From Candidatus Roizmanbacteria bacterium GW2011_GWA2_35_19 (GTDB lineage: Bacteria; Patescibacteriota; Microgenomatia; UBA1406; GWC2-37-13), in NCBI GenBank assembly GCA_000990565.1, contig LBQC01000006.1:1-38472 (forward strand): a DNA stretch of 38,472 nt. The letters are read 5' to 3'. Positions 2,080 to 22,498 of this stretch are shown here, piece after piece (the stretch's first letter is position 1; each line of letters starts with the position of its first letter). The position numbers were made by a program, and so were the translations under genes. The notes under the pieces are model-generated. The model saw only the letters and a list, made by a program, of their open reading frames with translations. It was not told the DNA's origin and did no database searches.

Positions 2080-2729
2080 CTAAGATCAGAATAGATAATT
2101 ATATCAGGAAAACTTTCCTTGCAGGTTGCATAATTACTTTTGCAGACATTACAACCTTGAACTGTTTCTCGGTATACGCTTTGTTCAGGTTGACATTCAA
2201 CAAATTGTGGAGTTGGAGTTGGGGCACTACTATTTCCAATGCTGGTATTGGGACTGGAAACTCCATAATTATAACTATAGTCCGGTTCAGGTCCACAACC
2301 ACCGGCGCATCCAACAGAAGCAATCACAGGATCGGCAGTATTGGACAAAGTCGTATAAATTCTATACCAGGATGGGCAACTGGCATCGTCGACTTGATAC
2401 AAATATTTTTTTATAGGTTGTTGAGGATCACAGGGAAGTTGTGAAAGGTATGGATTGAAATCCGGGGAGTTCGCATCATTACCGCAGATATTGCATGGAA
2501 TTACACCAGTATCGTTGTAGCAAATCTCACTTGGCCGGGGATAACAATCTTTATCGTTATAATAATCTTCTAAAACTTTACTTAGTTGAGCTAATTCCTG
2601 TTTTCTTTTAGTGTCTTGGCTTTTCTCTATTTGTTTTTTCGGATTAAGGGTGATTAGGGCAATTACTGCCAAAAGAATGATCAGACTAATGACGATCATA
2701 ATCTCCATGAGGGTAAACCCTTTTTTCAT
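2058..2729 (-). CDS. type IV pilin/pseudopilin-like protein
   Basis: N-terminal prepilin motif MKKGFTLMEIMIVISLIILLAVIAL; Cys-rich C-terminus. Confidence 0.85.
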   Translation of the reverse strand: MKKGFTLMEIMIVISLIILLAVIALITLNPKKQIEKSQDTKRKQELAQLSKVLEDYYNDKDCYPRPSEICYNDTGVIPCNICGNDANSPDFNPYLSQLPCDPQQPIKKYLYQVDDASCPSWYRIYTTLSNTADPVIASVGCAGGCGPEPDYSYNYGVSSPNTSIGNSSAPTPTPQFVECQPEQSVYRETVQGCNVCKSNYATCKESFPDIIIYSDLSCYILCF

Positions 2730-3355
2730 ACTTTTATTTTACTAATTCTTAATTTATTTTCCAGTGACTCAACTAATTTTCGAAGTAGCCAATCAGTTTT
2801 ATTAATTAGTTCTATAAAGATTTCGTAAGTCAAATCATGAGCAGTAACATTGTTTAAAGGAGGATAAAGGAGAGTTATAGGATGGTAATTAAAATCCTTT
2901 ATCTTCCTGTAATTTCCTTTATTCTCCTTTAATCCCTTATTCAATTCTCCAAGATTAATACCAATTCCTACCAAGCTTGATCCTGGGCTTGATTGAAGAA
3001 ATTTATCCTCGGTCAATTCCCTTACATCTCCCTTGACTTCCTCCAGACTTCCCTGACTGTAACCTATAAATTGAAGATATTCTGACGTGGTGGTCCTTTT
3101 ATAACCTTCCTCAATATTCCGGACAACGCTTCTTGCTGCGTCGTCTACTTGAGATTTTCTCCGGTATTCAGACTTTGGTAAGGACTCGGTAAATTTTCTA
3201 ATGAAAAATCGTAAAAGGACAGCATTAGACCAGGGTACAAGATATTTATAACCATCGGGATCGGTCCACGCCCGCGAACTGCTTTGAGGATTTTTTGTTT
3301 CTTCAATCTCCCTCAGAGTTTTTTCTACTAGCTGTTGTGAAATAGATTTATCCAT
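2726..3355 (-). CDS. four-helix bundle protein (23S rRNA intervening-sequence protein-like)
   Basis: 'DDAARSVVRNIEEGYKRTTTSEYLQFIGYSQGSLEEVKGDVRE' is typical of the family; 4-nt ATGA overlap with the downstream pilin ORF. Confidence 0.75.
   Translation of the reverse strand: MDKSISQQLVEKTLREIEETKNPQSSSRAWTDPDGYKYLVPWSNAVLLRFFIRKFTESLPKSEYRRKSQVDDAARSVVRNIEEGYKRTTTSEYLQFIGYSQGSLEEVKGDVRELTEDKFLQSSPGSSLVGIGINLGELNKGLKENKGNYRKIKDFNYHPITLLYPPLNNVTAHDLTYEIFIELINKTDWLLRKLVESLENKLRISKIKV
2856..2939. repeat. F7-family repeat inside the four-helix ORF
   Basis: aaaggaggataaaggagagttataggatgg...tcctttatcttcctgtaatttcctttattctccttta, near match to 3381-3455. Confidence 0.75.
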
Positions 3356-3380: not shown

Positions 3381-3455
3381 AAAGGATTGTAAAGGAAAGT
3401 TAAAGGATGGTTTATTATCCTTTAGTTTCCTGTAGTCTCCTTTAATCTCCTTTAA
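3381..3455. repeat. F7-family repeat, intergenic copy
   Basis: aaaggattgtaaaggaaagttaaaggatgg...tcctttagtttcctgtagtctcctttaatctccttta; purine/pyrimidine hairpin. Confidence 0.75.
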
Positions 3456-6400
3456 TTAATAATAAGCCAATTAAATTTAATTGGTACGGACGATGGTGTA
3501 TTAGAAATGACTTTAAAGTATGACTTGGTTCCAATAATTTTTTCTCCGACTGATAGTTGAGAGATAGAAACAGTTGAAGAAGTTGGAGTTAAATAAATCA
3601 GTGAGCTTTCTTTAATGTTGTTGTTATAAATTATAATTTCGCTGGAATTTTCCGGTAAAATTCCCAAGCCGGCGCTTGAGGTAGCCGTCTCAATCGCCGG
3701 GGCGAAGATCCCGTTTTGGGTAAAATTATCCGGGGCGGCGATCACGGCGGAATTAGTGGAGATATTGTTAATTGTTAAATTGTTGATTGCTAAATTGTTA
3801 ATTGTAACCTGTCCATCGTCTGTCAGTGGTTTGATTTCGTTCGTCCGTATCCCGCCTTCTGCAATTAGCTCACCCTTTGTGGTGATCGTTCCGTCTTTGG
3901 CGATTATCACCGCCCCGTCAAGCAGATTAATTGTTGAAAGAGCAGAAAGTTTTAATTCGGACGCTAGGGAAATAATTGAATTTTGATCAATTAGGGTGGT
4001 ACCAACGAGGAGGGAATTACTGACGGAAACGTTGTATAAATTGGAATTTCCGGTGACAGTTAGATTTTCAAAAGCGTCATTCCCTCGAAGGAGGGAATCC
4101 ATTTCTTGAGACTGGATCCCCCTTTTCAGGGGGATGACAGAAGATGAAATATTCTGGTAATTGGTCGGGTCGGGCATGGATTGATTCTGAATGTCCGCAA
4201 TTAACTTTTGGACATCATTGATATTTGATGATAGAGAATCAATTGTCCCAGATTCAATTTCACCGGCAATTAATTTCCCAGAAATTGAGGCCTCGTTGGT
4301 CGTTAACGTGTCTGAAGCGAGATTGCCAGAGACGGTCGCATCATTATCAATTTTCAGAGAATCGGCGATTATTTGCCCGGAAAATGAGGCATTACCAACG
4401 GCATCGATCACGACCGCTGATTTTCCTTCAAGGCCTTTGATGATTAATTTGGCTAATTTACCGGCATTAGGGTCGACACCGGGGTCGACCCCTACGTCGT
4501 CATTTAAATCAATTGTTAAATCACTGTTTTGCGGTTTTATTTCATTCGTTTGTACAATATTTAATTTGGCTGTTCCTGTTGCAATTAAATCCGTAGTTTC
4601 AACAACAGGTGAGACTATTTTTTCCTGGACTAAAATATTTTTCGCGACCAATAAATTATCAACTAATATATTTTCCGTCTCTATTAATCCTGACTTAATT
4701 TTCCCCACCATTAATTCTGAAAAGGCCCCTATGCGAGTAACTATCTCTCCGGTATTTAATTTAACATTGTAAATTTGATTATTGAAAATTGATTGAAAAT
4801 TTTCCGCCTGGTTTCCATCATAAACATACGGCGTTTGGCTATCGTTTTTTATCTGTAAATCACCCATTGAGGTAATATTCAAATCAGCTAGTTGGCCAGA
4901 AAGAGAAGAAATTTGTATTTGCTGTTCTTGGATAGCTTTTGTGAGGACGGGAATAAGACCTGTTGTATTGAGTTGTTTATATCCATTATCTTGATCAATA
5001 CTAACCAAATTAGGGATCAGCGTTTCAACTTCTTGGGCAATAAAACCAAGGTTTTTATAAATTGAAGCTCCGCTTTTCCAGTTAAAATCTACTGGTCTTA
5101 AGTTCATAATAGTATCTAGGCCAAAAGAAGTGTCTTCAATATCCTGTTTTAGCCGGACATCTGAAGTACAAGAAATAGTACCTCCAGTTGCCAAAGTACA
5201 ACCAGTGGTGTTATCACTTAAGAATCTGGCAATGACTCCATTTTCCGGAGCCAAAACATCAAGAAAGTATGCAGGTACTAATCGTCCAATACCCACTCTT
5301 CCAGTATCAGAAATAACAGTATTGACGGCTCTTCGATAGATATAAACATTATCAATATAACCGTTAAAATTAATGTCCGGAGTAAAAATTATATCTGTGT
5401 TATTGGCTGTAGCGTCGAAGGTAAGATCATATGATCCATTGGCACTAATTGCATCGTGAGCTGCCGTTCCAACTTTTGGAGTGACAGTGCCGGCTGTTCT
5501 TCCTCCCATATCAAAAGTCATTCTATATATTTGATTATTATCAATATAGCCGTCTGTTAAATTACAAGATAAATCTGCAGTATTTAATACGGTATGAAGG
5601 GCCGTCCCACCAGAACGAGCCCAGCCGGCACCGTATGTCCAGCATGTTGTAGCATTTGTGAAAGTAATATCATCAGCATCTTGGTCGTTAAGATTAGCTG
5701 ATTCGACCGCTTGAACCTCTATGGCGTTACCTGAAGGAGTATCAACATCAGCTAATATTTCTAATGTAGCCGTAGGTGCAGAAGTACCGATTCCGACGTT
5801 GCCGCCATTTGGTTGGATAATCACATAACTGGAAGTTTTTGTAGCATTACTAGTCCCGTCAAGAATAAGGTTTCCACTAGCAGCATTCGATCCATAGATA
5901 GTTGCATTATCAGCAGTAAAGGTAAGCTCGGTAGCCCCACCCCAAGCAACTGCAGATGAAGTTGTTAGTGTGGCAAGCGAGGAGGCGGTGATTGTAGTAC
6001 CACTAAGGGTAAGGTTACCTCCTAGAGATGTTAAGTTGTTTCCGGATACTGTGAAAGTGTTGTCTAGAGTTGTAGCTCCATGTAAAGTTAATGTTCCTGG
6101 AGTGGTGGTAGAACCAATAACGTTGACTGAAGAAGCTCCGGTTCCAAGCGTGGTGCTTCCCGTTGAATTAAGAGTACCAGCAACATCAAGTAAATAACTT
6201 GGAGTGGCGTCACCGATGCCGACGTTGCCTCCTGTAAAGAGGGCAGAGTAGGTAGCATTACTGAAAGTGGCAGTTCCAGTAAATGTATTGGCAGATGTAC
6301 CGGTTTGGGTGTAGACTCCATTATTTGTAATCCCTGTTATTCCGGTCATGGCTCCGGTAGTTGAAATATCCCAATCATTTGAGTTTAATGACAAGGTTCC

Positions 6401-9400
6401 TGCATTACCAATAGTAATAACATCTACACCGGTTGCGCCGGTGCCAATATTAATAGTGTCTATTCCAGTACCTGTACCAAGGTTTAAAGTTCTAGCTACG
6501 TTTGATGCCCCAACATTAATTATCTGGGAAGCATCAATAGAGTCAAGCGTTACGGTACCCGTAGTTGTTTGCAGGGTTAGACCTGTGGCGCCTAAAATAC
6601 CCAATGTTCCGTCGGCAGTGATATTGTCACCATTAACTGCCAGATCACCAGCAGTGGTAATATTACCCGTTGCCCCTGCGACCTGGAATAAATCGCCGTC
6701 ACCAACTGTGAAGGTGGCAAGCGGCGTGGTGTCACCGATCCCGACGTTGCCACCAATAGCTAATAGGGCATAACCAGATGTAGTTTCAAACAAGCCGGCC
6801 GTACCGCCCGCACTGGAATATCCCTGTACACCATATCCTGAAACGGTTGATCCAATGACTCCATTACCTGTACTGGAATATCCCTCGACACCGAAACTTG
6901 AACCTACTCCATATATGCCTGTTCCGCCGGTGCCATATACACCGTAAATAGAACCATCAGCGCGAACACCATGCGCTGTGCCTGCACCATAAATAGCAGC
7001 ATTGGAATCTCCAACTCCTCCAACACTTAATTTTGATAATGGGGCAGTCGTTCCAATCCCAACGTTTCCGCCAGCGAAAATTGCCGCATAATTAGCATCT
7101 GCTCCGGTTGGTGATTCTACATAAAGTCCGTATTTGGTGGAAGTTCCATTAGTTGATGAAGTACCATTGGCTATATATAAGCCATATTGGTTGACAGTAC
7201 CAAAATCTCCAGCATGAGACGCATTAGTCGTAATATATTCCCCATATACATGAGTAGTACCGGCTGTAGTTGGAGCGCCCCCGGTGCCGGTAATCGTATT
7301 GTATATTCCATAGACATTCTTTGTTGCTGCCGTATCCAAAGCTCCAGTGTTACTGACTTTGTTATAAATACCAAAATCAGTATTAGCTAATGCTATTGCG
7401 TCAGTCATATAATTAAAGATACCCGTTGAAGAATTAGCATTGGTTGAATTACTATTGATGGTTCTAATGTAAAGGTTATTTCCGCTTTGACCTACACCGG
7501 TTGTGTCAATAGTGGCTTCAGAATATATAAGACCCGTATTTGTACCACCAGAGTTTCCAACATCTGAGGCGATTTTTAATCCAGCGTCAGTCACTCCAGC
7601 TGTACCTCCTGAAGGACCGGTTATTACAAGTTGTGAGCCTGTGGTTAAGGCAGTGGCAGACAAAGTCAAAATATCACCGGTCGTGACAGAATTGGCTGTA
7701 ACTCCGGCAATAGTACCCGATGTACCAATGCCGGTGTTAGTTATCAGAAAATCCCCGCCCGTAGTTAATGTTGAATCAATATCGAGTTTAGCATCAGGTG
7801 AAAGATCATTTATTCCTATACTTCCGGCGATTAACAAAGAACTCCCAGTGTTAGCGGGATCAAGATAGTAAGAAGTGCTGGTTTTGTCGTAAAAAACCTC
7901 ACCGGTGACCGTGCCTGTAGTATCGATATTTCCAGAAGTATCAACTGAAAAAGCATCAGCTGTCCCGGCTTTAAGAGTCCCTGATGCGTCAAAATCTCCG
8001 GTCACAGCTATCGTCCCATTTGTATCATTATCTATTTTTTCTCCATTAGCAAAGGTAATATCTCCGCCTGCACCTGTGTTGAATGTTAACCCAGTTGTTC
8101 CTTGGATAACCAGATCTCCAAGTGCGGTTAAAGTTGTTGAAGAGAAAGTTGCATAATCAGTTCCTGATCCATCCTCAAGTGTAATAGTTCCGTCCGTTTG
8201 ATTATGTATCTGCTCAGCATTTTCAAGTTTTAATTCAGCCGTTCCAATATCCGCAGCATCAAAATTAATTCCATATGTGAAGTCGATCCCAGCTGCTCCA
8301 GTATCAAATCTGATGGCATTTTGCACCATATCATTACCATCATTATTAGCTAAAGTAAGAAGAGCATCTAAACCCTCATCAACATCACTAGCTCCATTGG
8401 TAGCTTGAGATAAGGAAAGGAGGACTTGATCCTGATCTCCTGTACCCGTCGTATCTTCTCCCTGAGCAGTCAAGCTAAAGTGCGTTGCTGCAGTATCAGC
8501 GCCTGAATCCCAGTTGAAAGTGCTATTGTAAGTCGCCATCGTCAAGGTTAGATCAGCAGCTGGGTTATCAATTTCATTCCAAGGGATGGTTCCCGAAAAT
8601 ATTCCATATATGGTTCCGTCAACTTCAAGATTTCCTTCAATATATAAATCATCATCACTATCTACATTTGAAGCTCCCGTGGTTGAATCTCCAATCACAT
8701 TGTAGGCAACGTCGGTTGAGCCGGAACCACCAATGTTTAAAACATCGCCGTCAGCCAATACAACCTGTTCAATAGTTCCTCCTCCGGCAGCGTCTATCGT
8801 CAAATCACCAGTTGATGAAACGGTAAAACCTGAATAAACAGTTCCGTCCGTATATGTTAGTCTTAACTGCTCTCCAGAAGTTGCCAAGGAATCCAGCTTG
8901 GCATCAGGGCCAGTTGTTCCAACACCAACACTCGCTGAACTACCAGAGAAAATATGATCACCATCAAATGGATTATAAGTTATTGTTCCATCCACTCCAA
9001 AAGTGATACCGGCATTGTAGTATTTGACTCCCGTTCCTGCCGCTCCTGTTAACTGTAAATCGTCGTTTGTATTTATTTCCCCAACAACTTGAAGTTTATA
9101 AGTAGGAGCTGTCGTTCCAATTCCCATATTTCCATTTTCCACAATCAAGCCATAGTTATTGGTAGCACCAGAGGCGGAGAAATAGCCACCGACGTTGGTG
9201 GAAGTGGTTCCGGTGTTGGTCACAGCAGAGTAGAGTCCATAGGCAGTATGGGAAGCATTGGCGTTGGTGCCTGATCGGCTGATATCCAAAAGTTTAGAAA
9301 CTCCACTGGCTCCTCCGGCTGTCGAGGTGGAGGATAAGTCAAACAAAGTACCGGTGGTTAAACCGGTGGAGGAAAGAGCAAAAGCATCTTCTGTTGTGAT

Positions 9401-11074
9401 TGAATCAAAAGTAAAGGCGGTGGTATAGCCGGCATGAGCCAGGGAGAGATTACCATCTGGGACGGTTAAAGCATTCCACTTTAAAGATGAAGCACTGATG
9501 GAATTACTCCAGCTCATATCACCAGTTGTATTTGAAGTCAGATAATATCCAGAAGCAGCTCCAGGAAAAGCATTAGGTAACTTATATACAGTATCTCCCG
9601 CTAAAGTATCCGGAGCCTGAAGACCTACATAGTTAGTTCCGGCTCCAGAGGGCTCTGCTAAACGCAAATCTCCTTGATTGGTAACGGTGGTATTTCCACT
9701 ACCGTCAATAGTTAATCGATTTTCCGTATCAGTTGAGCCGCCGGTCCGGAATTTTAGTGTTCCTGATTCAGTTGCCTGAAGGATTATATCCCCAGTTCCG
9801 GCTGATTGAATGACGGTGGCTTTAGCGCTTGATAAAGTAAAATCAGTTGATGCGGATGTTGATCTGATTCCTGGAGACGATGCTGCAATTAGCAGATTAC
9901 CGTCAACATTGATATAAGGAATATTGGAAGCGTCGGAGCCAGGGGGAAGCCCCTGTAGGGTTTCAGAATTTATAGCATAACCAACGTTGGCAATTTGCTG
10001 ACGGGGAGTCATTTCACTATCTGAAGCCACGGTTATTCCAAGATATACATCGGCATTCTCAGAAAAAATTGAAGAATCAACTTCAGTACCACAGACAGTC
10101 TGTGGCGGAGTTGGCGAGTACCCCGATCCACCGATTAAGACATTAAAAATTCCATCTTGATCAGGAGTCAGTGAGCAGGCCCCGGCCGTATATAATGCTG
10201 ATCCGCCTGATGAAACACTATATAGTTTGAAAGTTACATTGGTTGCAGTTGAAATAGGATTAGCTAAGCTGTCAGTCAGCCGACCCTGAAAAGAAAGTAA
10301 TCGGCCCGCTCGAGTAAGCCCGGTTGGATAAGCAAAAGCTTTCTCCGACTTTAGAAAAAATTGATTATATATCCCGGCACCCATTACAGAAACAAAGATG
10401 AGAATTATAATTAGGCCAATGTAATGTTGCAATCCAAAGTTAGAAGGAAGGTTTAGAAACGAGTTAGGAAGTTGGTTGATGGAAGCTTGATTCTTTTCTA
10501 ATTTCTTACTTCTATTTTCTTGACCCGCTTCAAAACCCACCCTCCAACTTCTAAACAGGCTTAATATTTTACTAAATAATTTAGGGCTTATTAAAGCCTT
10601 ATTAGGAGGGATTTGCTTGTCCTCTGTAGTTTTCTTGACCTTTGAAGCCTTGGCGAAAGAGGTAGCGTAGGAGGAATCTTTGATATTTGAGATTTTCTTA
10701 GCTGGGTTCTCCGTCATCCACCCTTGAGAAATACAGAACGAACAAAATTTCCTTAAAGCAGAAAGTCGACGGTTGATAGTTTTGTGAGGGAGGTTATTTA
10801 CAACAAGATAAGAGCGATATTTAAAAACAACCTCTGAGGTCATGTCATTTCGAAGAAGCCTCTCGACCTTGCTCGAGGTAAACTCCGCGACTGAGAAATC
10901 TGGATTTCTCGCTGTGCTCGAAACGACATCAGTACCAACGTAATGCTCTAACCAGCCTGCAAAATGACGAAAATCTGAGAGATAATTTTTTAATGTGATT
11001 TGAGAGACGTTTCCCGCAGTCAAGAAACTTTTGAATTGTGGCTCTAGATTATATAGATTATACCCTTCTTGCAT
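3452..11074 (-). CDS. giant surface protein: N-terminal phage-integrase SAM-like domain, TM segment, repetitive tail-fibre-like region, internal S74 (endosialidase chaperone)-like domain, long C-terminal extension
   Basis: N-term 'FKSFLTAGNVSQITLKNYLSDFRHFAGWLE...TINRRLSALRKFCSFCISQGWMTENPA'; TM 'YIGLIIILIFVSVMGAGIY'; eight 'GNVGIGTTAPxxKL'-type repeats; 'SDVRLKQDIEDTSFGLDTIMNLRPVDFNWKSG..NLGFIAQEVETLIP'. Single 2540-codon open frame. Confidence 0.85.
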   Translation of the reverse strand: MQEGYNLYNLEPQFKSFLTAGNVSQITLKNYLSDFRHFAGWLEHYVGTDVVSSTARNPDFSVAEFTSSKVERLLRNDMTSEVVFKYRSYLVVNNLPHKTINRRLSALRKFCSFCISQGWMTENPAKKISNIKDSSYATSFAKASKVKKTTEDKQIPPNKALISPKLFSKILSLFRSWRVGFEAGQENRSKKLEKNQASINQLPNSFLNLPSNFGLQHYIGLIIILIFVSVMGAGIYNQFFLKSEKAFAYPTGLTRAGRLLSFQGRLTDSLANPISTATNVTFKLYSVSSGGSALYTAGACSLTPDQDGIFNVLIGGSGYSPTPPQTVCGTEVDSSIFSENADVYLGITVASDSEMTPRQQIANVGYAINSETLQGLPPGSDASNIPYINVDGNLLIAASSPGIRSTSASTDFTLSSAKATVIQSAGTGDIILQATESGTLKFRTGGSTDTENRLTIDGSGNTTVTNQGDLRLAEPSGAGTNYVGLQAPDTLAGDTVYKLPNAFPGAASGYYLTSNTTGDMSWSNSISASSLKWNALTVPDGNLSLAHAGYTTAFTFDSITTEDAFALSSTGLTTGTLFDLSSTSTAGGASGVSKLLDISRSGTNANASHTAYGLYSAVTNTGTTSTNVGGYFSASGATNNYGLIVENGNMGIGTTAPTYKLQVVGEINTNDDLQLTGAAGTGVKYYNAGITFGVDGTITYNPFDGDHIFSGSSASVGVGTTGPDAKLDSLATSGEQLRLTYTDGTVYSGFTVSSTGDLTIDAAGGGTIEQVVLADGDVLNIGGSGSTDVAYNVIGDSTTGASNVDSDDDLYIEGNLEVDGTIYGIFSGTIPWNEIDNPAADLTLTMATYNSTFNWDSGADTAATHFSLTAQGEDTTGTGDQDQVLLSLSQATNGASDVDEGLDALLTLANNDGNDMVQNAIRFDTGAAGIDFTYGINFDAADIGTAELKLENAEQIHNQTDGTITLEDGSGTDYATFSSTTLTALGDLVIQGTTGLTFNTGAGGDITFANGEKIDNDTNGTIAVTGDFDASGTLKAGTADAFSVDTSGNIDTTGTVTGEVFYDKTSTSYYLDPANTGSSLLIAGSIGINDLSPDAKLDIDSTLTTGGDFLITNTGIGTSGTIAGVTANSVTTGDILTLSATALTTGSQLVITGPSGGTAGVTDAGLKIASDVGNSGGTNTGLIYSEATIDTTGVGQSGNNLYIRTINSNSTNANSSTGIFNYMTDAIALANTDFGIYNKVSNTGALDTAATKNVYGIYNTITGTGGAPTTAGTTHVYGEYITTNASHAGDFGTVNQYGLYIANGTSSTNGTSTKYGLYVESPTGADANYAAIFAGGNVGIGTTAPLSKLSVGGVGDSNAAIYGAGTAHGVRADGSIYGVYGTGGTGIYGVGSSFGVEGYSSTGNGVIGSTVSGYGVQGYSSAGGTAGLFETTSGYALLAIGGNVGIGDTTPLATFTVGDGDLFQVAGATGNITTAGDLAVNGDNITADGTLGILGATGLTLQTTTGTVTLDSIDASQIINVGASNVARTLNLGTGTGIDTINIGTGATGVDVITIGNAGTLSLNSNDWDISTTGAMTGITGITNNGVYTQTGTSANTFTGTATFSNATYSALFTGGNVGIGDATPSYLLDVAGTLNSTGSTTLGTGASSVNVIGSTTTPGTLTLHGATTLDNTFTVSGNNLTSLGGNLTLSGTTITASSLATLTTSSAVAWGGATELTFTADNATIYGSNAASGNLILDGTSNATKTSSYVIIQPNGGNVGIGTSAPTATLEILADVDTPSGNAIEVQAVESANLNDQDADDITFTNATTCWTYGAGWARSGGTALHTVLNTADLSCNLTDGYIDNNQIYRMTFDMGGRTAGTVTPKVGTAAHDAISANGSYDLTFDATANNTDIIFTPDINFNGYIDNVYIYRRAVNTVISDTGRVGIGRLVPAYFLDVLAPENGVIARFLSDNTTGCTLATGGTISCTSDVRLKQDIEDTSFGLDTIMNLRPVDFNWKSGASIYKNLGFIAQEVETLIPNLVSIDQDNGYKQLNTTGLIPVLTKAIQEQQIQISSLSGQLADLNITSMGDLQIKNDSQTPYVYDGNQAENFQSIFNNQIYNVKLNTGEIVTRIGAFSELMVGKIKSGLIETENILVDNLLVAKNILVQEKIVSPVVETTDLIATGTAKLNIVQTNEIKPQNSDLTIDLNDDVGVDPGVDPNAGKLAKLIIKGLEGKSAVVIDAVGNASFSGQIIADSLKIDNDATVSGNLASDTLTTNEASISGKLIAGEIESGTIDSLSSNINDVQKLIADIQNQSMPDPTNYQNISSSVIPLKRGIQSQEMDSLLRGNDAFENLTVTGNSNLYNVSVSNSLLVGTTLIDQNSIISLASELKLSALSTINLLDGAVIIAKDGTITTKGELIAEGGIRTNEIKPLTDDGQVTINNLAINNLTINNISTNSAVIAAPDNFTQNGIFAPAIETATSSAGLGILPENSSEIIIYNNNIKESSLIYLTPTSSTVSISQLSVGEKIIGTKSYFKVISNTPSSVPIKFNWLIIN
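4076..4138. repeat. GTCAT..ATGAC double-hairpin element, copy 2
   Basis: gtcattccctcgaaggagggaatcc ... ctggatcccccttttcagggggatgac. Confidence 0.85.
10437..10555. repeat. F1-family repeat inside the giant ORF
   Basis: gtttagaaacgagttaggaagttgg ... tattttcttgacccgcttc; 19 nt identical to the acs copy. Confidence 0.85.
10637..10661. repeat. short element gccaaggcttc..aggtcaag (SFAKASKVK)
   Basis: Reverse complement ctctttcgccaaggcttcaaaggtcaag resembles 23137-23159 in rplA (ctctgccaaggcttctgaggtcaag). Confidence 0.55.
10844..10927. repeat. GTCATTTCGA..TCGAAACGAC palindromic element
   Basis: Terminal inverted repeat with one mismatch; inner GAGAAATC-TG-GATTTCTC hairpin. Confidence 0.75.
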
Positions 11075-11257
11075 ACAATATCATAATAAAACAATAATAA
11101 TAATGAAGTCAAGAGCTATTTTAATAGTATTTTGATATAGTTTAGCCTAAGTGCAGATATAATCCTATATTTATAATTAAACGTAATTAATATAATAACC
11201 GCATAAAATATTCACCTACTTAAATATATATAAATATATCATAGAGCTTATAGTAAT

Positions 11258-11628: not shown

Positions 11629-12042
11629 ATGAAGAAATCGTTAGTATTTTTACTATTTTTAGTCACTGTAATTTTAGGGTTTTCTATATTTTTTGGGCTT
11701 TATGAAGTCAAGTTCTTTTCAAGTCGGGCCTCAGTTTCTACATCTTCTTTTTCAGTAGATAACTCATATGTGTTTATAACCCCGCTTCGTGCTAGAGCAA
11801 ATGGACAAGAAAAAATAAGGTTAACGGTATTTATTCTTAATAACCAAGGAATTGGAGTACTTGGAAAAAAGATTTTTATATCTCCAAATTCAGCTCTAAA
11901 TATTGAAGCAATTCAGGGCTTGACAGACAGCTTTGGCAAAGCTTACTTTGACATTACATCATCGGCGACTGGAGAGTTTTACTTGGAAATAAAGGCCGAT
12001 GATATAACTCTGGCAGATAAGGCTCACTTGAGCTTCTACTAA
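11629..12042 (+). CDS. secreted/anchored Ig-like (invasin-type) domain protein
   Basis: N-terminal hydrophobic helix; 'ANGQEKIRLTVFILNNQGIGVLGKKIFI...GLTDSFGKAYFDITSSATGEFYLEI' Big_1-like pattern. Confidence 0.6.
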   Translation: MKKSLVFLLFLVTVILGFSIFFGLYEVKFFSSRASVSTSSFSVDNSYVFITPLRARANGQEKIRLTVFILNNQGIGVLGKKIFISPNSALNIEAIQGLTDSFGKAYFDITSSATGEFYLEIKADDITLADKAHLSFY

Positions 12043-13021
12043 TAGCAAGGCTTTCTCTTACTACTATTTCTCTCCCTTTTTGAATGCCAAAAGGATGAAA
12101 CAGTTTTTTGTACAAAACATAAAGCAGATAACCAATTTCTGAAATAATTAGGATTTCGATAATCCTTGATCTTATTAGACCTAAGATTATCGATAGATAT
12201 CTAAATATAACCATCCATACGGGCAGAATTTTGTAGTTAAGTCGTACACTTTCCGGAGTTTTTTCATCATTGTATTCAGACTGAGCAAATAATCTGAAAG
12301 AATCGGGGCCGGACGAGGGCAAAGAGAGGTTAAAATTACCGAGGGAGTCGGATTTTGCAGTAAGCGATGGGAATGAGGTAGCCTCTACCGGCTTAATAAT
12401 TGGGTAAAACGGACTGATTTTTGATAATAGTGAATCACTATTTCTTGTGAAAACCGAAAAATCTACCTCACTATTAGGTATAGTTTGTCCTGAAAGTATA
12501 ATCTCATCATTTATGTAATAATAGTCACTATTTAAAGATAGGGTGGGCGGGATCAAAACCGGGCCAATATTCACATCGTATTGAGTCGGGAAGGGTGGTA
12601 GGCAAACAGAGGTAGAAATCCGGCCAAACTGATCTTTGGAGCTCAAACAAGCCTCACGAGGGGAAAATGGAGAAAAACGGTTATTAAATGCAAAAAAGCC
12701 TTCCTCATCTGCCGTCGTCTGGTCATAGACTCCTTGTCCATCAAAAGTCACTAGGGCAAGAGGGGACGTATATCCAAAAAGACTAAAGCGATACTCACCG
12801 ATAGAGATACTATTTGAAACTGTATGTCCTTGAGTCCCGATTCCGGCCACCTGCGGACTGAAATTAACCTTAGAATGAAGCCTATATAGCTGGAAGGGGA
12901 TTAATAGTAACAAAGCCGAGACTAATAAATATTGGCGCATAACTACAAGTATACTACTTTCAAATGCCTCTTTTTCGAAGTTGTGATTTAAGTTTCTCAA
13001 TCTCTTCCTTCTCTTTTTCAA
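11954..13021 (-). CDS. membrane-anchored surface protein with Ig-like repeats and C-terminal TM
   Basis: N-terminal TM 'MRQYLLVSALLLLIPFQLY' (likely start about 12940), C-terminal TM near 'IIEILIISEIGYLLYVLYKKLF'. Confidence 0.6.
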   Translation of the reverse strand: MKKRRKRLRNLNHNFEKEAFESSILVVMRQYLLVSALLLLIPFQLYRLHSKVNFSPQVAGIGTQGHTVSNSISIGEYRFSLFGYTSPLALVTFDGQGVYDQTTADEEGFFAFNNRFSPFSPREACLSSKDQFGRISTSVCLPPFPTQYDVNIGPVLIPPTLSLNSDYYYINDEIILSGQTIPNSEVDFSVFTRNSDSLLSKISPFYPIIKPVEATSFPSLTAKSDSLGNFNLSLPSSGPDSFRLFAQSEYNDEKTPESVRLNYKILPVWMVIFRYLSIILGLIRSRIIEILIISEIGYLLYVLYKKLFHPFGIQKGREIVVRESLAISRSSSEPYLPELYHRPLFPSKTLQSPMM

Positions 13022-14003
13022 GTGCTTTCTCTAATTCATTTTCCTTAACAGTGAAGTTCTTATAAAATTTGTTTATAAGCATACTCACAATTATAATCGC
13101 GAGGATGACGGCGGTCGCGACTCTCCATGGAAAGACCCAAACATAGGTGCTTTTCTCAAGCGCCTGGCCTGTAAGACCGTATGAGGCAGCTAAATCAAGA
13201 CGATATCGGCCCATCATCCACTTAGTGCCAAGTTCATTCTTAAAAGACCTTGATGTATCGGGGAAAATATTTTCTTCCGGGAGTCTTTTTTGGTCTACCA
13301 AGCCTCCGGTCATATTAGTAAGGCTAACAACCCCTCTTGGCCTTATATGATAGTCACCTCGATTTAAAATTTCGGTTTCAAGTGTAATCGGTCCATATTC
13401 AAAGAAGGACGGGGTAAAAAATCTTGAGACAATGGCCTTTTCAGCCGTAACACCTGCAACTTTAAGATAGACGAGAGCGGCAATTCTTGATCCGACCCCA
13501 GTTCCAGCCTCATTTATTCCACCGACCGCCTTTGGCACTTCAGGACCCGGCTCAAAATATACAGCTACATATCTTCCCCCTGGTCTTGCAGTCTCAGGCA
13601 CAGAAATAGTTGCCTGGATTGTGACTTTATCAGTCGCGGGAATGGTAATCCTATCATATGGTATTGTAAACCAACTAGCGCCGGAAAATTTTGGAGATGA
13701 GAGGGCGGGATTATCGATTATTACTGGTGTCCCATCAGTATCTTGGACGACAAAATCGGCGATTCTTAAAATTCCAGATACTGGCATTTCTCCAGAATTA
13801 TAAAATCGTACATTGATTGCCGATTTGCCACCCGGATCAACCTCAAGTTCCTGACGGGCCGGGGCCACAATAAGCGGCATGATTGATTGAGCCACTACTC
13901 CTTGGGAATAAACAAATAAACAAATAAACAAATAAACAAATAACAAAAAGACAGATTTGAGTTTTGAGACTTGAGTTTTGAGATTAATTTGTTTATTTTT
14001 CAT
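12960..14003 (-). CDS. DUF916-like (WxL-associated) secreted protein with C-terminal TM
   Basis: Signal peptide, 'IVAPARQELEVDPGGKSAINVRFYNSGEMPVSG', C-terminal TM 'VATAVILAIIIVSMLINKFY'. Confidence 0.6.
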   Translation of the reverse strand: MKNKQINLKTQVSKLKSVFLLFVYLFICLFVYSQGVVAQSIMPLIVAPARQELEVDPGGKSAINVRFYNSGEMPVSGILRIADFVVQDTDGTPVIIDNPALSSPKFSGASWFTIPYDRITIPATDKVTIQATISVPETARPGGRYVAVYFEPGPEVPKAVGGINEAGTGVGSRIAALVYLKVAGVTAEKAIVSRFFTPSFFEYGPITLETEILNRGDYHIRPRGVVSLTNMTGGLVDQKRLPEENIFPDTSRSFKNELGTKWMMGRYRLDLAASYGLTGQALEKSTYVWVFPWRVATAVILAIIIVSMLINKFYKNFTVKENELEKALEKEKEEIEKLKSQLRKRGI

Positions 14004-14045
14004 TTGATTATTTAATTATTTAATTATTTGTTTATTTGTTTATTA
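13906..14045. repeat. F5-family long inverted repeat spanning the start of ORF 12960..14003
   Basis: (caaataaa)n at about 13911-13942 mirrored by tatttgtttatttgtttatt at 14026-14045. Confidence 0.75.
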
Positions 14046-15572
14046 AAACGTCGGTACGGCCGTATATTTAACTTTATTATAATAATATCCGGCGGGTTGA
14101 GTGCCTGGTATCGCAATTCGATAGCAGACATATATAGATGATCCTGAAACAGGAACGGTATTGTTCATAATTTCAGCAGTACTGTCCGATCTTGACTCTG
14201 ATGCCTCCTGGTCTGCTAACTGTTTTGCAGAAAAAGTTCGGCTTGATTCATTATATAAAAATTCGGCATCAGTCCCAGATTGATTTTCAAGCGAATATCC
14301 AAAACCTACATATGTTGCCATATCAGTCCAATCCTGAGAAGTCTGGTGAGTACAAGGCGTTGCTCCACAGGCCGTATCACGAATACAAGTGCCTGAAGAA
14401 AAGGTGAATTCACCTGCCGATGGAGTCGCACCTGTACAGACATTACCGTCCCGACCCATCTGGTCATTTTCTTCAGCATAGACCTTATATCCTGCGCTAG
14501 CATTGGTTGAGACTGTTAATTGTTGAGCAGTATTATGGGTAGCTGTAGCATAAGTTGATGAGATTGTACCCCATGGAATTGAATATGCAGTTGAATCAGG
14601 GGTTGCTGACGTTCGAGTTATATTACAAGTAGTACCGGAATCAGCAGTAACTCCCGCAACCGTAAAGGATAAAGATTCATCGACTGTCGCCGATACAAAC
14701 ACAGCTTCAACTGGAGCGACTTTCATATTAACCTGATCAATCGTATTGTCCGAGCCATCACGAGTCCTTACATTTATTGTATATAGATCAGCAGTTCCCT
14801 GAGTATGTCCAGAATTGATTGGAGCCGGATTAATTAGACCGGGGGAAGAATCGACTGTTATTGTTATTGCCGATGGAGCCACACATAAAGCGGTCTGACG
14901 ATCAATTCGTATTGTGTGATCAGTTGAAGAAGTACCACAAGTAATTGTTTCGGTTGCAACCCAGTTTCCATCTGTACAACCAGTAACTGTGATATCAGCG
15001 GCGGCAATTCTATTTGAGGCGTCTCCCATGTCAAAACCATTAGTTGCGGCGGTTGCAGCGGTATCCGGGAAACCATCACATGGGGTAGTATCTGCGTCAA
15101 GAGCGGGAATGGTAACTAAAATATCTCCATCAAGCGGGACTTCATTCACTGTTGTAAATGCGATTGTCAAACTTCCCGATTGAGTCGCAATTACTAAGTC
15201 AGCTGCTCCAAGGGCGGTGCCGCCAAGAGCAGTTGTGATGTTAAATGTCGTTGTGCTCGGGATACTCGAGACAACATAAGTGTTCTGCATATAGCACCCA
15301 TCAAGGGTAGCTCCGGCAAAACAGACAGTGTCTTTCGGAAATAAATGATGAGTGTCATTATCAGCATTGCCGGACGCGTCTATTGTAACTATGGAAGAAC
15401 CGATGGCACCAGTAGCAACACCTGCTCGATAAGAAAGTCTTGAATTCGATAAGGTTGCTGATGCAGAAGTAAGACTAGCTGAATTAATAATGTTATTTTG
15501 AGGTAGTGTAATTATAAAAAGATACGTTAATGCAAAAAAAATAAGACAAAAAAACAATATTTTTTTAGCCAT
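14043..15572 (-). CDS. secreted Thr/Ser-rich surface protein
   Basis: Signal peptide 'KKILFFCLIFFALTYLFIITLP', paired Cys, C-terminus 'PGTQPAGYYYNKVKYTAVPTF'. Confidence 0.6.
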   Translation of the reverse strand: MAKKILFFCLIFFALTYLFIITLPQNNIINSASLTSASATLSNSRLSYRAGVATGAIGSSIVTIDASGNADNDTHHLFPKDTVCFAGATLDGCYMQNTYVVSSIPSTTTFNITTALGGTALGAADLVIATQSGSLTIAFTTVNEVPLDGDILVTIPALDADTTPCDGFPDTAATAATNGFDMGDASNRIAAADITVTGCTDGNWVATETITCGTSSTDHTIRIDRQTALCVAPSAITITVDSSPGLINPAPINSGHTQGTADLYTINVRTRDGSDNTIDQVNMKVAPVEAVFVSATVDESLSFTVAGVTADSGTTCNITRTSATPDSTAYSIPWGTISSTYATATHNTAQQLTVSTNASAGYKVYAEENDQMGRDGNVCTGATPSAGEFTFSSGTCIRDTACGATPCTHQTSQDWTDMATYVGFGYSLENQSGTDAEFLYNESSRTFSAKQLADQEASESRSDSTAEIMNNTVPVSGSSIYVCYRIAIPGTQPAGYYYNKVKYTAVPTF

Positions 15573-15700: not shown

Positions 15701-16498
15701 ATGGGAATCAAAGAAAGACGGACGAAGATTTTACTTTCATTATTTTTAATTGCGGGCGTAGATTTTTCGGATGTTGCTATTGACGAAAGAATTCAAAAAG
15801 TATTTGATCTAACTCTAAACCAGAAGACAAGAGGGACTTTATCTGGGTTAATAAAAGAGGGGATGATAGAGAAAAGCACGGGTCATTCTGGGGAGGAGAC
15901 GAAGTCGACGACACCAGAATCAGCGCAAGATTCTGGACAAGCCAGAATGACATATCATTTAACCAATAGAGGGTTTGCGGAGCTGTCACTTGAGTTCTCG
16001 TTTTTTAGGTATCTTAAAGAAAAATGGGATGGCAAGTGGAGAATCATTTCATATGAGATTCCGGAAAAAAAACGAGAAATCCGCGATCGATTGCGACGTG
16101 AAATGCAGGGTTGGGGTCTTGGTCCATGGCATAGATCTTTTTGGCTGACACCTCATCCGATCATCGGAACCTTAAAAGAACTAGTCTCACAAAAAGAAGA
16201 GGAAAAATATATCCAGGCTTTTGAATCCGATCATTCATTTGGAGACCGTGAAATTTTAATTGAAAAAGTTTGGGGTAAGACAGAACTTGATAAATCCTAC
16301 AGAGCATTATTTAAAAAATGGCACGATGTGCTTTCATCAGACCTCCCAAAGACAGATAAATTTAAAAAAGTGATATCTGAATATGTCGATATTCTTCGTC
16401 AAGATCCAGGACTTCCAAAAGAGCTGGTCGGCGAGGGATGGATTGGGTTTGAAGGTTGGAATATCTTCAATGAGATTAAGAGCATATTACTCTCATGA
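15701..16498 (+). CDS. PaaX-family-like transcriptional regulator
   Basis: 'WDGKWRIISYEIPEKKREIRDRLRREMQGWGLGPWHRSFWLTPHPI' PaaX-like core; N-terminal wHTH-like segment. Confidence 0.7.
   Translation: MGIKERRTKILLSLFLIAGVDFSDVAIDERIQKVFDLTLNQKTRGTLSGLIKEGMIEKSTGHSGEETKSTTPESAQDSGQARMTYHLTNRGFAELSLEFSFFRYLKEKWDGKWRIISYEIPEKKREIRDRLRREMQGWGLGPWHRSFWLTPHPIIGTLKELVSQKEEEKYIQAFESDHSFGDREILIEKVWGKTELDKSYRALFKKWHDVLSSDLPKTDKFKKVISEYVDILRQDPGLPKELVGEGWIGFEGWNIFNEIKSILLS
15882..15951. repeat. palindromic element inside the PaaX-like gene
   Basis: Perfect 10-bp termini GTCATTCTGG/CCAGAATGAC; nested CCAGAATC-N7-GATTCTGG. Confidence 0.85.
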
Positions 16499-16610
16499 AT
16501 TTCTAATTTCTAATTATTCTAATTGACCTAAATATTTACCAATGTCTAAATCCCAATTGGATAATTGGGTATTTTTTAGGTTAATTAGAAATTAGGTCAA
16601 TTAGGTAATT
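16497..16610. repeat. AT-rich imperfect hairpin repeat between convergent genes
   Basis: aattgacctaaa / tttaggttaatt and ttctaatttctaattattctaattg / taattagaaattagg arms. Confidence 0.55.
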
Positions 16611-17418
16611 TAAATACTATGTCTCCATCTAAGTCCGTCCGTTTAATTTTAATATTTTGGGCCTTAAGATAATCTAAAACTTCGTGGGTAGGATGACCAT
16701 AAGAATTATTTTTTGAAACACTTATCACAGCGTAGTCAGGGTCTGCCAATCGCAAAAACTTTTTATTTAAACTGTATTTTGAGCCATGATGGGGAATTTT
16801 AATAACATTAAATTTTTCAATAGACAGTCTTGACAGTCTGCTAAGAATTTTTGAGGTGATATCCCCCGTATACAACAGTCTAAAGCCGTTTAATTCGAGT
16901 GAAAAAACCATAGAAAGGTCATTTGGGTCGGCGGACGTAAATAATCTAACTGGCCAGTAAAAAACAATCCGTCCGTTACTAATGTTAATTAGATCCTTAT
17001 AATAAGCAGAAATAGAATAGATATTATTTTTTATTATTATATTTTTCAATTCAAGCGGAAGTTTTTTTTTACCGTCTAATTCGTTAATAATAATTCTATT
17101 AATTTTATAGTACTTAACAACAGATGAAAGTCCTCCATAATGGTCTTTCTGAGGATGACTGATAATAACAAGTTCAATTTTTTTATCAAAGGCAGGCATA
17201 TATTTACCTAGACAGTTAACAACTTTTGAGTCGGGTCCGGCATCTATTAAGATATCGACATGATTTAGCCGTACATAACTTGCATCTCCCTGACCCACAT
17301 TGCAAAAAACAACTTTATTAATATTACTACTGCTTCTTAAATGTATAGTCATCAATACAAACAAAGAAAGCAACGTCGCAAGTAAAATAGATCGAGCCGT
17401 AACAGGGGACTCTTCCAT
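16597..17418 (-). CDS. ComEC C-terminal metallo-beta-lactamase-like domain protein
   Basis: 'VVFCNVGQGDASYVRLNHVDILIDAGPDS...IISHPQKDHYGGLSSV...IPHHGSKYS...NSYGHPTHEVLDYL'. Confidence 0.85.
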   Translation of the reverse strand: MEESPVTARSILLATLLSLFVLMTIHLRSSSNINKVVFCNVGQGDASYVRLNHVDILIDAGPDSKVVNCLGKYMPAFDKKIELVIISHPQKDHYGGLSSVVKYYKINRIIINELDGKKKLPLELKNIIIKNNIYSISAYYKDLINISNGRIVFYWPVRLFTSADPNDLSMVFSLELNGFRLLYTGDITSKILSRLSRLSIEKFNVIKIPHHGSKYSLNKKFLRLADPDYAVISVSKNNSYGHPTHEVLDYLKAQNIKIKRTDLDGDIVFKLPN

Positions 17419-18200
17419 TAGAATTTAAAGAAAATAAACGGTAATTTTGACAGAGTTTCAACTACAAAAATGAGATAACTTAGTAGTCCATAACATATTA
17501 AAGACGGTATATAACCTAAGAAATAGTTAATTTTGCCCAAAATTGCTGTCAAAAAACCGAAGATCATAAGGGGAGCAATGATTCCTGAGACAAAAAGATT
17601 AGAAATAGGTGCAATTATAGATACTTGTTTAAAATAAATGAAAATAATCGGGGTAGTGAATATTTGCGCAGCAAGAGAAACCCTTAAATCCTTACACACT
17701 GACCATTTAGAAGAAGATCTACCAAATAAAATTATTCCGAAAGTTGCTCCATAAGACAACCAAAGAGAAATTGTTGTAAGCCATAAAGGAAAAAAAATAC
17801 CAATAAATATTATGGATAAAATAAGAGAATAAATTACAAAATATTTTCTTCCATATAAAATTGCAACAGACGTTAACAAGCCCATAATGGCGGCTCTGAT
17901 TATTGGGGCCTCAGGACCTACAAAAATAACGAAGAAAATAATACTTAGTATGGTTATCAGTATAGACACCAATTTGCCAAGATTCTTAGTAAGCGAGCTT
18001 ATTATTACTGTTAATAGGGTAATATTTATACCTGATAAAACGACTATATGGAGCAATCCAACAGTCCTTAGACTTTCATAAAATTCTTTTGAAGTCTTTA
18101 GGTTGGTGCCAAAAATTATTCCGCTTAATAGCGAAGAGTGCGGCTCTGGAAGATAGGCGTTAAAAACCGGCAGAAAAATTTCCGGATGTGGAATACTCAA
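17418..18200 (-). CDS. comEC: ComEC/Rec2 competence membrane domain
   Basis: 'LLSGIIFGTNLKTSKEFYESLRTVGLLHIVVLSGINITLL..', 'GPEAPIIRAAIMGLL'; multi-TM. Confidence 0.85.
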   Translation of the reverse strand: MSIPHPEIFLPVFNAYLPEPHSSLLSGIIFGTNLKTSKEFYESLRTVGLLHIVVLSGINITLLTVIISSLTKNLGKLVSILITILSIIFFVIFVGPEAPIIRAAIMGLLTSVAILYGRKYFVIYSLILSIIFIGIFFPLWLTTISLWLSYGATFGIILFGRSSSKWSVCKDLRVSLAAQIFTTPIIFIYFKQVSIIAPISNLFVSGIIAPLMIFGFLTAILGKINYFLGYIPSLICYGLLSYLIFVVETLSKLPFIFFKF

Positions 18201-18859
18201 AGCTCAATCAAATTTTTAATGTTTTCAAAGACACTTTTGCTCATAATTTTTTTAATAATAAGTTCATCTAAAGCCTTAAAAGGTCGATTGTTGATTATTT
18301 TTTCTCCGGTGATTTTACCGACCCCCGGTAGGGTATCGAGCTCTTCAAAAGACGCGGAATTTATATTAATTAATTCATTGTTAAGGGCTGATTTATCCTG
18401 AGCGAAGCCGAAGGATTGCTGACTACTAATTGTGTTATTTACGGCTTGAGGGTTTTCAGAAAAGTAACCATTATCGACCTCCCATATTGAAGGGATATAT
18501 ATTTTTTCTTGATCAGATAAAATCCTAGCTTGATTAAAATTTCGATAAAAAAATTTATTATCAGCATTTTCTGTTAAACCACCAGCCTTCCCTATGACAT
18601 TATTTAATCTTTCACCGGGCGTAACTTCATATACGTCGGGTTTATTTACCTCTCCGCTGACGTCAACGAATATTTTCTGAGTATTTTGATTTACATATAC
18701 TGGTATTTCCTCATCATCAATTGAAGTTTTATTATTTACCAAATATATAGCCATTGAAATGACGGTAAGGACAATGGAAAAAATTATTAAAACAATCTCG
18801 ACGATATATTTCTTAATTGTTTTTGATTTCAATAATTCGAAAAAATTACTTTCTCCCAT
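18197..18859 (-). CDS. comEA: ComEA-like DNA-binding competence protein (SLBB + HhH)
   Basis: TM anchor, 'IFVDVSGEVNKPDVYEVTPGERLNNVIGKAGGL', 'ININSASFEELDTLPGVGKITGEKIINNRPF'. Confidence 0.85.
   Translation of the reverse strand: MGESNFFELLKSKTIKKYIVEIVLIIFSIVLTVISMAIYLVNNKTSIDDEEIPVYVNQNTQKIFVDVSGEVNKPDVYEVTPGERLNNVIGKAGGLTENADNKFFYRNFNQARILSDQEKIYIPSIWEVDNGYFSENPQAVNNTISSQQSFGFAQDKSALNNELININSASFEELDTLPGVGKITGEKIINNRPFKALDELIIKKIMSKSVFENIKNLIEL
18396..18415. repeat. short element TCCTGAGCGAAGCCGAAGGA inside comEA (QSFGFAQDK)
   Basis: Imperfect palindrome in frame in the linker between the SLBB-like and HhH regions; resembles the 24585 and 28660-28695 motifs. Confidence 0.65.
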
Positions 18860-21784: not shown

Positions 21785-22372
21785 ATGAATCAGCAACAAA
21801 TTGCCGAAGAACAAAAAGTAGTCGAAAATATTACCAAAACTGTAGATCCTGCAGCAAAGTGGTATGTCATACATATTCAAACTAGCTACGAGCAAAGAGT
21901 TAAGCAAGCGCTTGAGCAAAGAGTAAAATCTTTAGGTGTTGAAGATAAGATTTTTGATGTTGTTATCCCAACCCGAGAAATAGTCGTCGTCAAAAAAGGT
22001 AAAAAAACTAAAACTACTGAGAAAGTTTTTCCCGGATATATTCTCATTAGAATGATATTAAATGATGATTCATGGTTAGTGGTAAGGACAACTGAAGGTG
22101 TAACTGGATTTGTAGGAGCAGGACTTAAGCCAACGCCGATTTCAGAGCGAGAAGTTGATGCTATCATGAAATTCGTTACTCAAGAGCAACCGAAGTTTAA
22201 AACTAAGTTTTCAGTTGGTGAAGCGGTCAAGATTACAGAGGGGCCATTTGCTGACTTCTTGGGAACTGTTGAGGCACTTGACGAGCAAAGAGGCAAGGTT
22301 AAGGTCTTAGTCTCAATATTTGATCGTGAAACACCGGTTGAGTTAGATTTTTTGCAAGTTACTAAACTTTGA
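21785..22372 (+). CDS. nusG: transcription termination/antitermination protein NusG
   Basis: 'KWYVIHIQTSYEQRVKQAL..', 'VFPGYILIRM', KOW 'VKITEGPFADFLGTVEALDEQRGKVKVLVSIFDRETPVELDF'. Confidence 0.97.
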   Translation: MNQQQIAEEQKVVENITKTVDPAAKWYVIHIQTSYEQRVKQALEQRVKSLGVEDKIFDVVIPTREIVVVKKGKKTKTTEKVFPGYILIRMILNDDSWLVVRTTEGVTGFVGAGLKPTPISEREVDAIMKFVTQEQPKFKTKFSVGEAVKITEGPFADFLGTVEALDEQRGKVKVLVSIFDRETPVELDFLQVTKL

Positions 22373-22375
22373 AAA

Positions 22376-22498
22376 TAGAAGAAAGGTATAGAAACAAGTT
22401 AAGAAGTTAGAAGATAGAAATTAGAAAGGTAGAATCTATCCTCCTTTTTCCATTTTCCTAACTCGTTTCCAAGCCCAATTACCATTTTCCAATTTAAA
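22376..22498. repeat. F1-family repeat, nusG-rplK intergenic
   Basis: tagaaacaagttaagaagttag ... cctaactcgtttccaagcc; imperfect hairpin arms. Confidence 0.7.

Follow-up and report, generated by a model that had tools for sequence, protein, structure and literature searches.

The window analysed here is a stretch of 38,472 nucleotides from Candidatus Roizmanbacteria bacterium GW2011_GWA2_35_19 (assembly GCA_000990565.1, contig LBQC01000006.1), which lies on contig C6 of a 1.12-Mb draft genome (G000). Its minus strand carries at 3452..11074 a giant gene, a single open reading frame (ORF) that starts with ATG and encodes in one frame a protein of 2540 amino acids (aa). This protein consists of a core-binding (CB) domain of the type found in tyrosine recombinases, a linker, one transmembrane (TM) helix and a long fibre-like region with a Peptidase_S74 domain. 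A preliminary description of the locus had already read the N-terminus as a core-binding domain without the catalytic domain, and Pfam, AlphaFold and Foldseek agree on this point.

The N-terminal domain (CB1, residues 1-132, 10679..11074, minus strand) is an Xer-type, SAM-like core-binding domain according to these three methods and an alignment of 31 rows. In the window protein Pfam reports Phage_int_SAM_5 at residues 63-128 (2.9e-7) and Phage_int_SAM_1 at residues 77-118 (3.3e-7), and no Phage_integrase catalytic domain with its catalytic tyrosine. The XerC and XerD models of NCBIfam align through their N-terminal third only, and PHROGs returns S74 tail-fibre and integrase matches and nothing else. 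A non-SAM fold would have spoken against the preliminary description, but the structure prediction yields the core-binding fold: residues 7-127 form a helical bundle with a predicted local distance difference test score (pLDDT) of approximately 84-98, the loop at residues 50-77 excepted (AlphaFold, input alignments of 25-37 rows). All Foldseek matches in the PDB from rank 1 to 46 are tyrosine-recombinase structures or core-binding fragments (e.g. 3nrw, TMt 0.72), with E-values that are weak (0.045 or above) because the disordered linker is part of the model. As a side observation, chain 14 of PDB entry 9i5v (401 aa, named RaiA, ribosome-associated translation inhibitor) contains a CB-type stretch at 10-106 and may be a further case of a recombinase domain reused or fused.

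Y31, D34, W41 and R102 are invariant over 31 CB1 sequences, the conserved stretch INRRLSTLRKF matches the Xer-type motif, and the net charge of CB1 lies at +6.8 to +7.0, whether fused or split, compared to +5.1 in the CB domains of true integrases. Across 11 relatives the differences in the CB region per codon position (0.35/0.22/0.53) reveal constraint at the protein level. A translation start further downstream, at the TM helix, which had been named as an outcome speaking against the preliminary description, finds no support, as the CB domain is constrained and both the start ATG and the DNA immediately 5' of it are conserved. Two intact recombinases are encoded elsewhere in the window genome.

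Hydropathy, the charges on either side and a long AlphaFold helix at residues 215-246 predict one TM helix at residues 216-238 (10361..10429, minus strand); the linker in front of it is predicted to be disordered. With a net charge of +9 in the linker and of -112 in the ectodomain the protein follows the positive-inside pattern, which fits an N-in, C-out topology; the DNA-binding-type domain would then lie in the cytosol and the fibre outside, with the one TM helix between them, consistent with the topology proposed beforehand. The fibre begins with a conserved first ectodomain (residues 255-375, 9950..10312, minus strand), which is also found in the fibre ORFs of relatives at 27-95% identity. 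Far downstream follows a Peptidase_S74 intramolecular chaperone (residues 1971-2024, 5003..5164, minus strand, Pfam 1.2e-13), whose motif SDVRLK at 1971 fits SDxxxK. S74 domains normally stand at the C-terminus of proteins; here the ORF translation continues for an extension of 480 residues (3455..4894, minus strand). Trimerisation and self-cleavage are putative properties of this domain.

The preliminary description had suggested a search for the same domain order in other genomes of the Candidate Phyla Radiation (CPR), and we find it to recur across the Microgenomates, so that a single odd gene fusion does not explain the protein. All genomes used are metagenome-assembled genomes or draft assemblies, and contig ends cut several loci. 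With residues 1-375 as query, 39 of 57 relatives match, and the loci fetched belong to no fewer than 20 families of the class in GTDB. In these families three locus forms occur: CB-TM-fibre, CB1-CB2-TM-fibre on a single ORF, and a form with two genes whose boundary lies inside CB2. Most genomes of the window genus that have the locus carry the CB domain fused to the TM-fibre part; in other genera a CB-bearing ORF of 160-190 aa often stands directly 5' of the fibre ORF. A search of 374 genomes of the class revealed many with two tandem N-terminal CB domains on one giant ORF, and some tandem forms with a single in-frame stop within the second CB domain. In some families (L188, L199, L200, L212) a small ORF with a single TM helix directly precedes the CB gene (L199: MLINDYSS...AGIIFVLPVIFLLVLSSN).

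A scan of named genomes gave best loci in Roizman-, Shapiro-, Gottesman-, Ames-, Collier-, Levy-, Woese- and Blackburnbacteria. The catalytic domain was looked for by Pfam in the window protein and in the 25 members of the tandem set, and by motif search at the named loci. Phage_int_SAM_1 is matched in 25 of the 25 tandem-set members and the catalytic domain (PF00589) in none of them; at the best named-genome loci none is recognisable by motif. In the named-genome scan it is confined to matches outside the Microgenomates (Omnitrophica, Prevotella, Coriobacteria and others). In the wider phylum outside the class, four ORFs are found at E-values of 1e-13 or below, three of 292-296 aa, the size of true recombinases, and a fourth of 525 aa. 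The ectodomain modules of the relatives differ, comprising S74, collagen, Peptidase_G2 and laminin G. Several of these modules form trimers in known proteins.

In the two-gene form CB1 and the first half of CB2 belong to the soluble protein; the second half of CB2 opens the fibre protein. A hidden Markov model (HMM) of CB1 aligns with its first third to the end of ORF1 and with its second half to the start of the fibre ORF. To avoid circularity a CB2 HMM was trained on the 25 unsplit tandem proteins alone, and a half was counted as significant if it reached E <0.01 and scored above 20 shuffles. Both halves are significant in 47 of 63 split rows, most with E-values of 1e-7 to 1e-19; at least six of the rows repeat a locus that had been fetched already, which makes the number of distinct loci somewhat smaller. 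E <0.01 was also reached by 94 of the 1260 shuffled tails and by 28 of the 1260 shuffled heads. On the model of 105 positions the first half extends, in the median, to position 38, and the second begins at position 49. This is the alpha2-alpha3 loop, the same loop that in CB1 of the window protein holds the in-frame insert. An unsplit tandem example folds as two CB domains (AlphaFold, pLDDT about 95), and the halves of CB2 are more diverged than CB1.

The junctions take different shapes. In L184, L187, L223, L228 and L230 the stop is followed by a start in the same frame at once or a few codons on; elsewhere the start lies in another frame or behind a longer gap, and about ten loci possess a single in-frame stop within CB2. 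The halves are separated by approximately 1 kb in L220 and 7 kb in L049 and L238. In Roizmanbacteria a microprotein of approximately 50-65 aa lies between them in 22 rows, about 19 loci (e.g. L053, L065, L066, L117, L208), with the motif LKxWFDPAxEGSPY...RRxxxR and a basic C-terminus; it is absent from all fused or tandem loci. The microprotein and the long gaps disfavour a programmed frameshift or stop read-through as the means of joining the halves, and make it more likely that two separate proteins complete one CB2 domain. The window genus has CB1 fused directly and has lost CB2. A CB1 tree of 127 columns is weakly resolved, with the window in a supported group of ten fused rows and one split row. 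It requires a minimum of 15-16 changes between split and fused forms; a count of split origins was dropped on account of the poor resolution.

Upstream of the fibre gene an alignment of 18 loci contains a conserved block approximately 90-180 bp 5' of the start. In the window this operator-like block (CTATAAG..TGATATATT..GTAAG..TGCGGTAATT..TATAGG) occupies 11164..11255 on the minus strand and was followed by alignment and by pattern and matrix searches. In the same alignment CTTGACA is strongly conserved near the start codon, with an inverted element AACTATATCA just 5' of it; in the window alignment and sequence place the inverted TGATATA copy at 11127..11142 (minus strand), just 5' of the -35 hexamer of a predicted promoter (TTGACT-18-TATTAT, 11083..11112, minus strand). 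CTTGACA is kept in 27 out of 33 upstream regions and in 37 out of 60. By themselves, promoter-like hexamers are no commoner than in shuffles; it is conservation alone that supports the promoter. A transcript starting there would probably be leaderless, the start codon lying about 9 bp past the predicted promoter. Further observed was that TATAATCnnTATAATCTTGA is coding in Roizmanbacteria (YNLYNLE, window approximately 11042-11062) and part of the non-coding leader 5' of the start in members of other families (L190, L195 and L203), which suggests an element acting at the DNA or RNA level.

The block is specific for the locus. A 38-bp pattern taken from it has one match each in 11 of 57 genomes, always approximately 120-152 bp 5' of CB1, with no match elsewhere in the 57 genomes and none with a reversed control; its TGCGG part has a unique exact match in the window genome. 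A matrix built from the window genus ranks top in 19 of 52 distant loci compared to 1.3 expected, among them the tandem one-ORF loci L225-L227, from whose genomes PaaX_M is absent, and k-mer counts show block words common to loci across the class. The CB domain is the sole recognised DNA-binding-type domain encoded within the fibre transcription unit. Two other identities for the block were discarded: Rfam gives no match to a known RNA and the block also lies 5' of the predicted promoter, and while TTATATTAAAT resembles the right arm of a dif-like Xer site, a search of whole genomes yielded no more matches than the reversed control did.

The intergenic region is shared with a divergent surface gene carrying an invasin-like immunoglobulin domain (Big_1, Pfam, 11629..12042, plus strand), which begins some 500 bp from the fibre ORF and is a neighbour in 16 of 23 loci. 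Three conserved TM or exported proteins without Pfam family (355, 347 and 509 aa; 11954..15572, minus strand) are followed by a PaaX-like regulator (PaaX_M and PaaX_C by Pfam, 15701..16498, plus strand) and by a com cluster (16597..18859, minus strand; Pfam and linkage) encoding an MBL domain, ComEC (Competence) and ComEA (SLBB and HHH). Directly 3' of the fibre gene, 2726-3355 encodes a protein of the 23S rRNA-intervening-sequence type (PF05635), with related ORFs in L048, L050 and L071. The PaaX-like gene adjoins 20 of the 23 long-flank loci and is directly divergent in L057, L060, L063, L067, L068, L069, L234, L235, L241 and L243. Of 43 distant genomes 27 have no PaaX_M, among them G085, G064 and G100, whose loci bear the block where it is expected.

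Where the upstream flank measures 5.5 kb or more, 22 of 23 loci have com genes nearby. ComEC (PF03772) was located in a set of 43 genomes, most of them distant. It shares a contig with the CB-fibre locus in 37, and in 34 of the 37 the two are no more than 15 kb apart; four genomes carry ComEC on a different contig, and in two (G310, G316), which do have the fibre, it was not found. Distances were obtained by comparing coordinates by hand, for G085 across the ends of its single contig. As a control we used ribosomal protein L11, which comes within 15 kb only in the family of the window and elsewhere mostly lies 25-115 kb away or on another contig. Regional synteny is present, and com is much nearer than L11. 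Contigs C8 and C20 of G381 bear two copies of the CB-TM locus, with one ComEC approximately 2.5 kb from each. As to the com and pilin neighbours of the preliminary description, comEA and comEC are conserved while a pilin occurs at 1 of 36 loci.

Three repeat elements had been placed in the linker, and three are present, with the first located instead inside CB1, where it is an insert in the loop between alpha2 and alpha3 (residues 50-77, approximately 10844..10927, minus strand; alignment, low pLDDT). The second (SYATSFAKASKVKKTTEDKQ, 10613..10672, minus strand) is an in-frame interspersed linker repeat of which 10635-10662 is also present at 1424-1451, and the third (10437..10544, minus strand) is likewise in frame and recurs at 35024-35131 (73%), in inverted orientation at 13-101 and near 22368-22475, and on other contigs as well (G000 C25, C7, C34). 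This repeat of approximately 108 bp thus occurs in frame within unrelated genes, the fibre gene and an acetyl-CoA-synthetase-like ORF (34597-36702), and in intergenic DNA. Palindromic coding repeats of Rickettsia are a known likeness. The three elements of the window protein resemble in-frame interspersed elements and are probably incidental. A further in-frame repeat (27941-28062 and 35729-35847, 85-87% identity) joins a transketolase-like and the acetyl-CoA-synthetase-like ORF, and 1498-1563 and 4076-4139 possess perfectly complementary arms of 28 and 26 bp, one within the ORF at 118-2079 and the other within the 3' portion of the fibre gene. This last element resembles repetitive extragenic palindromes and is translated in frame, as VIPLKRGIQ...MDSLLRGND in the case of the fibre protein.

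We tentatively propose, at somewhat less than an even chance, that the protein is a membrane-tethered, trimeric, DNA-binding surface fibre which binds its own operator. Its cytosolic part would be the core-binding domain of a tyrosine recombinase without the catalytic partner, which has been lost, with the one TM helix as anchor and the long fibre outside. The fibre is probably a homotrimer, since S74, collagen or Peptidase_G2 modules occur in different members, and a homotrimer would gather three to six CB domains beneath the membrane. In most relatives a soluble DNA-binding half may complete CB2 with the cytosolic tail of the fibre. The CB domains would most likely bind the block 5' of their own promoter and of the divergent surface gene, and the amount or state of the fibre could thereby be coupled to the expression of a com-linked set of surface genes. 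In its favour are the CB fold with no catalytic domain, the Xer-type motif and positive charge kept by CB1, the two halves of CB2 on either side of the gene boundary, the locus-specific block, the precedent of MrpR and the trimer-forming modules. Some points weigh against this proposal: isolated CB domains of known recombinases bind DNA weakly, a fibre of 2000 residues is unusual for a sensor, the operator matrix is weak or unmatched at many distant loci, a dif-like site is not recognised in whole-genome searches, and the operator may serve another factor, a PaaX-like gene being a frequent neighbour. Possible but doubtful is a wider form of the proposal, a class-wide system of the Microgenomates in which a soluble tandem-CB protein docks on the trimeric fibre tail and supplies the missing half-domain, so that contact or DNA capture outside might be translated into sequence-specific DNA binding inside.

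The CB domains might also serve protein-protein contact only, recruiting a soluble partner or acting as a cytosolic plug or anchor, with the operator belonging to another regulator. Docking is what a CB2 shared out over a soluble protein and a membrane protein obviously offers, and its halves diverge more than CB1 does; yet the RRLSxLR stretch of Xer type is still present in CB1, which also has a high positive charge and is of a domain type that faces DNA, and CB1 is retained in the window genus even without CB2, so that we regard contact alone as rather doubtful. If the operator were bound by the PaaX-like neighbour, the CB domain would have an unrelated job. The adjacency at 20 of 23 loci and the ten divergent arrangements favour this, but 27 of 43 distant genomes lack PaaX_M, and in the block-bearing G085, G064 and G100 it is found nowhere in the genome; the PaaX-like protein was dismissed as general binder of the operator for this reason, and the explanation as such is quite improbable.

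A role in DNA uptake would have the fibre and its cytosolic CB domain act in the com system and bind incoming or host-derived DNA beside ComEC. The close linkage of ComEC (34 of 37 distant genomes), the com genes near 22 of 23 loci, the ComEC near each of the two loci of G381 and an L11 control never within 15 kb outside the family of the window are arguments for it. The linkage may nevertheless be partly historical, as L11 at 25-115 kb points to some synteny; G310 and G316 carry the fibre and give no ComEC match, ComEC passes single-stranded DNA while CB domains bind duplex according to textbook knowledge, and the operator is left unexplained. We consider uptake coupling unlikely. Highly improbable is a decayed recombinase or an artefact, that is a chance fusion with split forms representing pseudogenes or assembly errors. 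Single in-frame stops or frame changes do break CB2 at many loci, and in G007 (L048) the reading frame of CB1 itself is broken, but the break point is the same and both halves are conserved in dozens of genera, the start codon follows just past the stop, a conserved microprotein lies between the halves in Roizmanbacteria, constraint acts at the protein level, and the window genome has two intact recombinases elsewhere.

Taken as a whole the interpretation of the preliminary description is partly supported. The parts of the protein, the CB domain, the S74 fibre and the TM helix, are known singly; for the way in which they are combined, for the conserved split and for the operator linked to them we found no counterpart in the open-access full-text literature. 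CPR bacteria live mostly on other cells, and the Microgenomates are tiny and probably host-dependent; to our knowledge it is largely unknown how CPR surfaces sense or exploit their host. If the proposal is true, a class-wide surface system would carry a recombinase DNA-binding module on the cytosolic end of a giant fibre, beside genes for DNA uptake and with a domain split over a gene boundary in dozens of genera, and it could connect contact outside the cell with DNA inside. If the regulatory part alone is true, the protein belongs with the transmembrane one-component regulators.

From general knowledge, ToxR and CadC are the nearest of these, possessing a cytosolic DNA-binding-type domain, one TM helix, an extracytoplasmic domain and regulatory DNA nearby, an arrangement here predicted. 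Their DNA-binding domain is a winged helix instead of a recombinase CB domain, and the fibre-like ectodomain described here is approximately ten times larger and its protein often split over two genes. Control of promoter DNA as in ToxR and CadC is a candidate function, for which the conserved, locus-specific block is circumstantial evidence. With XerC and XerD the window protein shares the four-helix CB domain by sequence and fold, and differs by its membrane anchor and by having no catalytic domain. A recombinase fold without recombinase activity is also known from MrpR, the SPbeta repressor, which binds SPBRE (PMC10516654). Sequence-specific DNA binding was shown for MrpR and is here inferred; MrpR is soluble with a degenerate catalytic domain, while here CB domains alone stand on a membrane fibre, and MrpR_N_CB gives a weak match in 1 of the 25 tandem-set members.

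On the side of the fibre, the eukaryotic membrane-bound transcription factor MYRF combines a DNA-binding domain, a TM helix and a trimerising, self-cleaving domain of the S74/ICA type in one protein (PMC3742443, PMC8326128). In MYRF the S74 and DNA-binding domains are on one side of the membrane; in the window protein S74 is predicted outside, where it could not release the DNA-binding domain. The mosaic adhesive trimer (MAT) fibres of Bdellovibrio, which take part in prey or host recognition (PMC10769870), are likewise bacterial surface fibres with an S74 chaperone (SDxxxK). A MAT protein is a signal peptide followed by the fibre, with S74 terminal and no cytosolic domain, whereas the window protein places a cytosolic CB domain before its TM helix and continues for 480 residues beyond S74.

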